This document shows positions 45,700 through 58,422 of a DNA stretch of 64,000 bases, one piece after another (within the stretch, counting starts at the first letter, position 1; each line of letters starts with the position of its first letter). The stretch lies in assembly GCF_024753565.1 (NCBI RefSeq), contig NZ_JANTPT010000001.1:2063336-2127335 (forward strand), given 5' to 3'. The translations under genes were made by a program, and so were the position numbers. The notes beneath the pieces were generated by a model, which was not told the origin of the DNA, made no database searches, and saw only the letters and a list, made by a program, of their open reading frames with translations. The stretch is from Mechercharimyces sp. CAU 1602. Lineage in GTDB: Bacteria; Bacillota; Bacilli; Thermoactinomycetales; JANTPT01.

Positions 45700-46102
45700 G
45701 AATCAGTTCCTCCTTTGTGATTGGGGTACTCACTTACTATTAAAAAGCGTAACGCATCTCTTTCCTATACCATGTATACGGATGATTCGTACTATTTACG
45801 CCATACATCCCTACACACAGCATCTTATGCTAACAACTTAGGTTGGTGTCACCAATATAAGCCCAAACCCCCTTGGATGAATTCATCCCGCCTAGTTATT
45901 CATATTCGATATCCATAGACAACATTCCTTTTCCGCATGCACTCTACTATCCTATTCCCACTTACATAGATGATAAAACAATAAGGTGCCTCATTCTTTC
46001 GATTATGGTTTCGCCACATAACAATATCAAGGTATCTATCCAATCAAAAAATCGATAGGAGCATATGATAGCAAATAGTTAGATCCAAAGGAGGTAATAG
46101 AT
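45700..46102. other. Intergenic interval without recognised gene
   Basis: About 400 bases between the ferredoxin gene and the DUF1259-like gene. Frames in both strands are short and lack ribosome sites. The right end holds AAAGGAGG at 46087-46094 that belongs to the next gene. Confidence 0.5.
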
Positions 46103-46942
46103 ATTCCTATTAGCCCTTTAATATGTCGATTGTTTGGAGAAATATTAGGAGCCACCTCCAGCCTGAATGCTGATAGAAGTGCGTGTGTGGCAACTTTCCT
46201 CCGTAATCTCCCTATAAGAGTAAAAGGAAGACCAGCCACTATCTTAAATCTCTCCTCTTTTTGTTTCGAGTCATTGGGTCGCGATGGGAAGGCTCTCAAT
46301 GTAGGTACCATTCCCCTTTTAACCAATGAGGTGGATCCGTTGATCCGTTCCTTGAATCGCGAGGGAATCATAGTTTCAAGAACAGCTGTGCGAGTCCAAT
46401 TTGAAGTGCCTTCTTTGACCAACATCTACTTTCAGGCAGTGGAAAATCCCATTCTTTTCGCAATAAAAGTAGCAAAAGTGTTGCAAGAAAATAAGATCAC
46501 AAGGAGCTTAGCCGGAACCCAATCATCTCCTGCTTTCCAGAGGTTATGTCAGCGATTTGTAAGCATTTTAGACGGATTTGCTAATACGACATTTCCAGGG
46601 GTATGTATCTCCTTCCAATCGAGGGATTTCCCGGTTCGAATTTCTGGGAAGCCCGTAGTAGACAACATTGTGAAGTCGGTTGTCGCAGGGTTTGAATCCC
46701 TTTCTTCGGATGGAAAGGCACTCTGTTTGGCTGATGTGACATTGTTAACTGATGAGGTCCAACCTTTTATCCGTAGGGTTCGTCAACAGACAGGATTCAT
46801 GGTCGCTTCAATAACCGACCGCTTCCTCTCGATTGAACCCACCTTATCCTATGTATTTTTACAGACGATTGCTAACCCCATTCTGTTTGCCAATCAATTG
46901 GCAGCTGTTCTACCTTTACAAAGAGCTCCGGCCCCTGCATAA
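46103..46942 (+). CDS. Two-repeat DUF1259-like protein with probable ATT start
   Basis: The product (279 residues from an ATT at 46103) consists of two similar units of about 120 residues. The first is LICRLFGEIL..., then LPIRVKGRP and LLTNEVDPLIRSL; the second is RLCQRFVSIL..., then FPVRISGKP and LLTDEVQPFIRRV. Each ends with a segment like the DUF1259 (LppY/LpqO) family, but the typical His residues of that family are replaced (RTAVRVQFEVP and SITDRFLSIEP). The only usual start, TTG at 46130, lies inside repeat 1 and has no ribosome site. AAAGGAGG at 46087-46094 is eight bases before ATT 46103, so I prefer ATT. Function unknown. Confidence 0.6.
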   Translation: MPISPLICRLFGEILGATSSLNADRSACVATFLRNLPIRVKGRPATILNLSSFCFESLGRDGKALNVGTIPLLTNEVDPLIRSLNREGIIVSRTAVRVQFEVPSLTNIYFQAVENPILFAIKVAKVLQENKITRSLAGTQSSPAFQRLCQRFVSILDGFANTTFPGVCISFQSRDFPVRISGKPVVDNIVKSVVAGFESLSSDGKALCLADVTLLTDEVQPFIRRVRQQTGFMVASITDRFLSIEPTLSYVFLQTIANPILFANQLAAVLPLQRAPAPA

Positions 46943-46967: not shown

Positions 46968-47002
46968 AAAAAACAGGCTGTCAAGAAAATATTGACAGCC
47001 TG
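46968..47002 (-). terminator. Terminator of the nitroreductase gene
   Basis: CAGGCTGTCAA pairs with TTGACAGCCTG, followed on the minus strand by TTTTTT. Its sequence is close to the hairpin at the right end of the IS element (58491-58525). Confidence 0.85.
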
Positions 47003-57069: not shown

Positions 57070-58422
57070 CTAGTTCATACGAGCTAGGTGGTTGGCAATC
57101 TTCTTGATGTTCTGCGCAGTCGCTGTCATCAGCGCCTGCTCCTCGACATTTTCCCGTCCTCGCAACCGGCAATAGCGAAGCCCATGCAGTTCTTTTCCAT
57201 CTGCAAAGCTTCGCTCAATAGTCTCTTTTCTTTTTTTGTAAAGGAGCTTGCCCTCGGATGAAAGCCGATTCGTTCGCACCTTTTCTTTATGCTCTTCCCA
57301 TACGTGGCGCGTCAGGACCTTTTGATGGTTCCTTGAACGTGTACACGATGTGAGTAGAGAACACGTGGAACAATTCTTTGGATCCGATTTGTATTGACGG
57401 TACCCTTGACGATCGGTTGTACTATACGCGAGTGTCTGTCTATTTGGACACAAATACGTATCGTTCGTTTCATCATATTGAAATTTCCATTTGGGCATGA
57501 GTCCTTTAGTGGGTGAATACCGACGATGTCCGATGACTCCAAAGATATTCCGATCACTCAACCCTTTACAAATGGGATTGGTAAGATAGCCTGCATCTAA
57601 AGCTACTGCTTCAACCTCAAATTGAAATCGTTGTTTTTGACGGTCTAACCGCTCGAGGTAGGGGATAGAATCATGCACATTTCCTGCCGTCACATGGACA
57701 TCGGTAATGATGTTGTATTTGATATCTGTCGTGCGATGATCGAGATAGAAAAACCCTTCAGGTTTCCCTTCTCGATACATATAGCCACTCTCAGGATCTG
57801 TCGAACTCACCTTCACTTCCTTTGTCTCCTTCACCTCCTCCTTTTCTTTTAATGGCTTTTTTCCGTGATCCTTCCGATCCTCTTCGATGGCCTGATTTAG
57901 TTCTTCTAGGTAGGCACGAGTCTGTCCTTTTACCCTCTCTTTTTTAAACTTTCGTTTGTTCGCGTTGGCTTTTAGGTGGGTCGAATCCGTCATCAACACC
58001 CGTCCACCCACCATGCGGTGATTCATGGCTTGCAGGACAATCTCATCAAAGATCTCTTGGAAAATGGAGGTTCCTTTAAAGCGAGTTCGACGATTCCAGC
58101 TGATCGTGGAATGATCAGGAACCGGATCCGTCAAATGTAATCCTAAAAACCAACGATAAGCTACATTTACACGAACCTCTCGTTCCAATTGTCTCTCCGA
58201 ACGAATGCCATAGAGATAACCGATGAACATCATTTTGAATAGAACGATAGGATCGATGGAGGGGCGGCCATTATTTTCACAATAAAGAGGGCGAACCTTC
58301 TCCGTGATAAATGAAAAATCGATATATTGGTCGATCTTGCGGAGAAGATGATCCTGGGGAACAAGCTCCTCTATGCAAACAAATTCCATCTCAGACTGAG
58401 TGTGATTCGTTGAACGTAGCAT
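57070..58422 (-). CDS. IS1182-family transposase
   Basis: The 450-residue DDE enzyme has an N-terminal DUF772-type domain ([20 protein letters not shown] near residues 45-64). DDE-like acidic residues are in [17 protein letters not shown] near 145, [11 protein letters not shown] near 273 and [15 protein letters not shown] near 408. A zinc-like Cys cluster ([13 protein letters not shown]) lies near 347. It is intact with no frameshift, so the element may be active. The start is the ATG at 58422. Confidence 0.93.

Follow-up and report, generated by a model that had tools for sequence, protein, structure and literature searches.

An apparent AUU start, a lost histidine set and a sporulation-type promoter motif in a two-domain DUF1259 gene of Mechercharimyces sp. 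CAU 1602

Background

AUU is the start codon of infC and pcnB in Escherichia coli, as it appears to be in the gene described here, and in infC it is used for self-control by IF3. For Staphylococcus aureus, excerpts of PMC13009471 describe near-cognate starts (AUU in cvfC1 and AUA in ccpN) that are functional with extended ribosome sites and yield ~10% of AUG in poor medium; according to the same excerpts, the odd start and long ribosome site of CcpN are also kept in Bacillus subtilis. Another gene with an AUU start, that of PncA (BBE22) in Borrelia burgdorferi, is carried by databases as a truncated protein, and its product, unlike the one considered below, is an active, experimentally proven enzyme (PMC13398362, in excerpt).

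The gene considered here encodes two domains of family DUF1259 (PF07485), for which the literature passages retrieved by a search on the name gave no function. Single-domain PF07485 proteins of Firmicutes (e.g., L211 of Thermoactinomyces vulgaris) resemble its product in the domain, in a pair of cysteines and in the column of the start codon, and many of their genes carry a similar -10 box upstream; unlike it, most keep a set of one glutamate and three histidines (E/H/H/H) and start with ATG, GTG or TTG, with one CTG exception. Two-domain proteins of Bacillus and its relatives (e.g., L259 of B. subtilis DE0224) likewise have tandem domains in one chain, but E/H/H/H is intact in 25 of their 26 first repeats and in all 26 second ones; this sample was retrieved by means of the HNHW and YIH motifs and is therefore biased towards keeping them. 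The present gene shares with cvfC1 and ccpN a near-cognate start behind an extended Shine-Dalgarno sequence; however, those two encode regulators or small proteins whose odd start is conserved among species (PMC13009471, in excerpt), whereas in DUF1259 such starts are dispersed over paralogues, and the encoded protein is a presumed structural component of the spore.

Results

The window (the whole 64,000-nucleotide stretch that was analysed, from a draft genome of 11 contigs) carries on its + strand an open frame from 46079 through a TAA at 46940-46942, closed upstream by an in-frame TAG (46076..46078). Within it, the coding sequence 46103..46942 (+; 279 codons plus TAA) encodes two DUF1259 domains and no histidine. 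In a Pfam profile search PF07485 was the sole family found, in two stretches (E 6.1e-27; 94.3 bits versus a curated cut-off of 25), and each repeat separately exceeded that cut-off, in agreement with an earlier sequence-only reading that had called the product a DUF1259-like two-repeat protein; an NCBIfam search of the protein gave zero matches. Overall identity to relatives was ~30%, and both repeats had long branches in the family tree.

It is a solitary gene: upstream, on the opposite strand, is a ferredoxin-like gene, and a nitroreductase-like gene lies downstream in convergent orientation (both named from their translations), and a hairpin that is terminator-like on both strands (CAGGCTGTCAA..TTGACAGCCTG, 46974..47002) is common to the window gene and the latter. 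Elsewhere in the window (57070-58422, - strand), a transposase-like gene adjoins a run of biotin-synthesis-like genes, also named from translations.

The ATT at 46103..46105 (+) was the best-supported start of this gene, judging from its spacing, the lack of alternatives, the way it aligns with relatives and the N-terminal helix in the structure model. An extended Shine-Dalgarno sequence (AAAGGAGGT, 46087..46095, +) forms the one strong ribosome site, of 9 bases, and the spacing from AAAGGAGG to ATT 46103 is 8 nt. No in-frame ATG, GTG or TTG was present upstream of the TTG at 46130..46132 (+), the first canonical in-frame codon, which lies just inside the domain; the next in-frame start with a ribosome site of at least 5 bases is TTG 46340, 79 codons into the frame. 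Genes with an AUU start of this kind are taken to have the codon 7-9 nt downstream of a long ribosome site and to lack a canonical alternative, as is the case here; the sequence-only reading had likewise placed the start at this ATT behind the only ribosome site. Three other codons were rejected: ATA 46097 (too near the ribosome site), ATT 46109 (13-14 nt from it) and TTG 46130 (no ribosome site; a start there would halve the first helix and cut off Cys 8). Folding of the leader RNA was nothing unusual (z -0.77).

Comparison with relatives bore out a further claim of that reading, namely that homology begins before TTG 46130: the helix carrying Cys 8 is common to relatives, and the start column of all 11 aligned two-domain relatives coincides with the window ATT. 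Nine of these 11 start with ATG or TTG and two are non-canonical; a normal start elsewhere, which the reading had named as a point against itself, was not found. The structure prediction that it had proposed as a check agreed as well: modelled from codon 1 with 24 sequences, the protein reached a mean pLDDT of 87.1 and a pTM of 0.81, with residues 1-20 at a mean pLDDT of 94 and a confidently modelled N-terminal helix at residues 5-15.

Non-canonical starts recurred across the family, an observation that is new here and goes beyond the earlier reading. The sample comprised 152 DUF1259 genes from class genomes (128 single-domain and 24 two-domain), from which 8 partial genes were removed before start counts; L110, a gene from outside the window's order with neither a canonical start nor a ribosome site, was judged degenerate and also left out. 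The 143 called starts were 105 ATG, 22 TTG, 10 GTG, 3 ATC, 1 ATT, 1 CTG and 1 CAT. The window's order is probably Thermoactinomycetales, judging from a single-domain protein of genome G004 that matches the one in a named Thermoactinomyces vulgaris record at every one of 132 residues. This order contributed 57 genes with a start called (not all existing ones), and five of these had no usable ATG, GTG or TTG (ATT, ATC, ATC, CTG and ATA/ATC): the window gene (ATT 46103, +, behind the 9-base site), L045 (ATC at 830, 8-base site), L052 (ATC, 5-base site), L022 (CTG, 11-base site, with two in-frame TTG that lack a ribosome site) and L051 (no canonical codon before the domain; ATA, ACG or ATC, counted as non-canonical with the codon used ambiguous). 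When the motif columns were left out of the tree, these starts needed five separate changes, on five branches and in four genomes. Outside the order, non-canonical starts were absent from all 86 genes with a called start, and also from a further 64 complete genes taken from named genomes, of which 62 had a scored ribosome site and 2 did not. Strong ribosome sites were not special to such genes, as two of the five had 5-base sites only. In the single-domain gene L019 (1474-1500, - strand, genome G005), the ATG is one base short and out of frame and the aligned codon is CAT; this gene was kept in the 57 and not counted as non-canonical.

As a control, 895 ORFs of at least 100 aa (444 from the window genome, 246 from G015 and 205 from G034) were scanned for near-cognate codons preceded by a ribosome site of at least 8 bases. 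Credible near-cognate starts without a usable canonical start nearby numbered four: the window gene, L045, a CcpN-like regulator (L176, ATC) and a short-chain dehydrogenase (L201, ATT). Most other candidates had an ATG one or two codons further; L181 (ATG 11 codons further) and L187 (an internal part of DnaI) were not credible. L176 (6465-7100, window genome) encodes an HTH and CBS protein that looks like CcpN, judged by its domains, and its apparent ATC start lies behind AGGAGGTGA with 44 codons free of any canonical codon; since an odd start has been published for CcpN, the control scan probably recovered a known case. The apparent ATT start of L201 (14718-15473, G034) lies behind AGAAAGGAG.

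Compared like for like at sites of at least 8 bases, 2 of 19 DUF1259 genes versus 2 of 876 other ORFs had such starts (p 0.0025, post hoc); earlier Fisher tests were post hoc too and used unlike thresholds on the two sides. A first scan of the fetched loci had given 3 near-cognate versus 38 canonical sites for DUF1259 genes, and 1 (L054, a GRDB-like fragment) versus 30 for the others. Moreover, among 83 sigma-K-type genes (-10 box plus a ribosome site of at least 7 bases), four had only near-cognate codons at the site: two were DUF1259 genes and the other two had an ATG 2-11 codons further, and general near-cognate use in sigma-K-type genes was therefore rejected.

The E/H/H/H residues, which lie in the LGE, HNHW and YIH motifs, form an E...HxH...H pattern that was near-invariant in the 128 single-domain relatives (E in 114, H in 125, H in 115 and H in 115) and in a smaller set of 31 single domains (29, 30, 31 and 31 respectively). 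From the kind of residue and the spacing, they may form a metal site. By contrast, across 34 repeats from the 17 two-domain genes in the smaller set they occurred only 2, 1, 1 and 1 times, and none of these 17 genes, which belong to three genera (g1, g12 and g24) and include the window gene, had the full set. The scaffold was nevertheless kept in the same 34 repeats (C2, C21, R27 and L60 in 33 each, P98 in 34), and all five scaffold residues were present in both window repeats. In repeat 1 (46124..46489, +; residues ~8-129; Cys 8 and Cys 28 kept) T/A/R/Y stand for E/H/H/H, and in repeat 2 (46529..46909, +; residues ~143-269; Cys 149 and Cys 168 kept) D/T/R/F do. The earlier statement that the family histidines are replaced in both repeats thus held, and it can be extended to the conserved glutamate, which that reading had not mentioned and which is also replaced in both.

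Because of these replacements the window protein was filed in a His-less branch of PF07485, as an atypical member; the E...HxH...H set is a feature of most members and lies outside the Pfam definition. Since His loss in both repeats is common to all 17 two-domain genes of the three genera, the non-catalytic or structural role proposed earlier is a fair inference. A single origin of the His-less doubles was not rejected (AU p 0.31; monophyly of repeat 1 was borderline, p 0.06), and therefore we do not argue that the histidines were lost more than once. In the class set, the three histidines were present in both repeats of seven other two-domain genes, bar one gapped position. Two side observations concern this motif: in ten single-domain genes (L074, L076, L090, L131, L134, L135, L137, L157, L158 and L170) R/H/E/N replaces E/H/H/H, and genome G015 (L044-L051) carries at least 12 His-less two-domain DUF1259 genes, a large local expansion.

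Searches for solved relatives by sequence gave none (the best match, RanBP2 at E 0.051, was taken as chance). The structure closest to a single DUF1259 domain was the C-terminal fold of T4 MotA (Z 8.1, rmsd 3.5, 99 aligned), within the range of chance arrangements; Foldseek returned no match at E 0.001 or better, and the structural lists held no clear relative.

The sigma-K consensus consists of a -10 CATAnnnTA and a -35 element with AC at 16-17 nt spacing, and a -10 box for sigma-K or sigma-E has the form CATAnnnT[AG]. Such a box (CATATGATA, 46062..46070, +) lies 32 nt before the window ATT. Across the family, the pattern was found 15-60 nt upstream of 82 of 143 genes versus 43 of 590 control genes: 32 of the 57 order genes and 50 of the 86 others carried it (shuffle means 2.2/57 and 3.4/86), with distances clustering at 25-34 nt. 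It was present in only 8 of the 17 His-less doubles and in only 19 of the 62 genes of the named-genome sample. Where the sigma-K -35 element would lie, C was common in the 82 family genes (63% at -18 and 59% at -17); the window gene has T and C at -18 and -17, a partial fit to the family pattern.

Co-occurrence pointed the same way: of 99 genomes with DUF1259, 90 also had SpoIVA, as against 178 of the 299 that lack DUF1259. Nine DUF1259-bearing genomes were without SpoIVA, and the five of their DUF1259 genes that were read all lacked the Cys pair. Neighbours of some relatives were spore-surface-like, namely collagen-tailed SBBP propellers beside this genome's other DUF1259 genes and a multicopper oxidase in G015; the window gene itself had no spore-gene neighbour. 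At L041 (1836-12491, window genome), four collagen-tailed SBBP-propeller-like genes, one of which was Pfam-tested, flank two adjacent single-domain DUF1259 genes.

Discussion

We consider it reasonably probable that the window gene is expressed in the mother cell during sporulation and encodes a minor protein of the spore surface that is non-catalytic, has lost metal-site-like residues and is weakly translated from AUU; the AUU use, expression, yield and location, and the metal site of the relatives, are what we infer. The sigma-K-type promoter just upstream would give a short-leader mRNA late in sporulation, on which the extended Shine-Dalgarno sequence would hold the 30S subunit for initiation at AUU. 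The yield would be a fraction of the AUG rate, perhaps ~10% if the S. aureus reporters apply. The product would keep the DUF1259 fold and one Cys pair per repeat, would be unable to bind metal in the way its relatives probably do, and may be a minor component of the spore surface, with a structural or scaffold role. No sign of an infC-like self-control loop was seen for the window gene. C1402 methylation of 16S rRNA by MraW is reported to restrain AUU initiation and to matter late in sporulation (PMC13317604, in excerpt), and dose control through a MraW-type effect at the window gene is conceivable.

The ATT may also be real and yet belong to a decaying gene, in which redundant coat paralogues drift, the ATG has mutated and a strong ribosome site yields leftover, meaningless translation. 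The concentration of non-canonical starts in fast-evolving, duplicated, His-less paralogues (four of the five belong to the 17 such genes), the long branches of the window repeats and the one-base shift at the start of L019 agree with decay; we nevertheless hold it unlikely, as the 279-codon frame is intact and keeps the scaffold residues in both repeats at ~30% identity to relatives, and the other four non-canonical-start genes all have full-length frames. A sequencing or assembly error, with G as the true base and an ordinary ATG start, would need a single base change in a draft genome. Against it, five genes on five branches in four genomes are non-canonical at the same place with different codons, and the 895 control ORFs held only two other credible cases, one of them CcpN-like, a family with a published start of this kind (excerpts of PMC13009471); the chance of such an error seems slim.

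Translation from TTG 46130, which would give a protein nine residues shorter, as an automatic annotation would have it, has in its favour that this is the first canonical codon, but it is very improbable: the codon lacks a ribosome site, and the protein would be without Cys 8, a residue conserved in 33 of 34 repeats, and would have only half of a helix modelled at pLDDT 94. As to function, the product may be no spore protein at all and instead a soluble binding protein that reuses the emptied pocket for another ligand. Such reuse is possible, the fold search gave no functional relative and the gene stands alone; set against this are the family-wide sporulation-type promoter and the co-occurrence with SpoIVA, which make a soluble binder distinctly unlikely in our view.

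With the spore-surface protein translated from AUU as the preferred reading, gene-finding software that accepts only ATG, GTG or TTG would make the protein nine residues short and overlook that a structural gene seemingly relies on AUU. More tentatively, near-cognate starts (AUU, AUC, CUG and perhaps AUA) may have arisen at least five times in one sporulation-linked family of one order, four of them in duplicated copies without the metal-site-like residues, and a weak start could be a repeated low-dose setting for non-catalytic coat subunits, possibly aided by late mother-cell ribosomes; this wider proposal is possible and we regard it as doubtful. If the recurrence is true, start-codon change would be a repeated route to dose control among paralogues. 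For PF07485, a family still named for its unknown function, the E...HxH...H set and the sporulation-type promoter are concrete leads.
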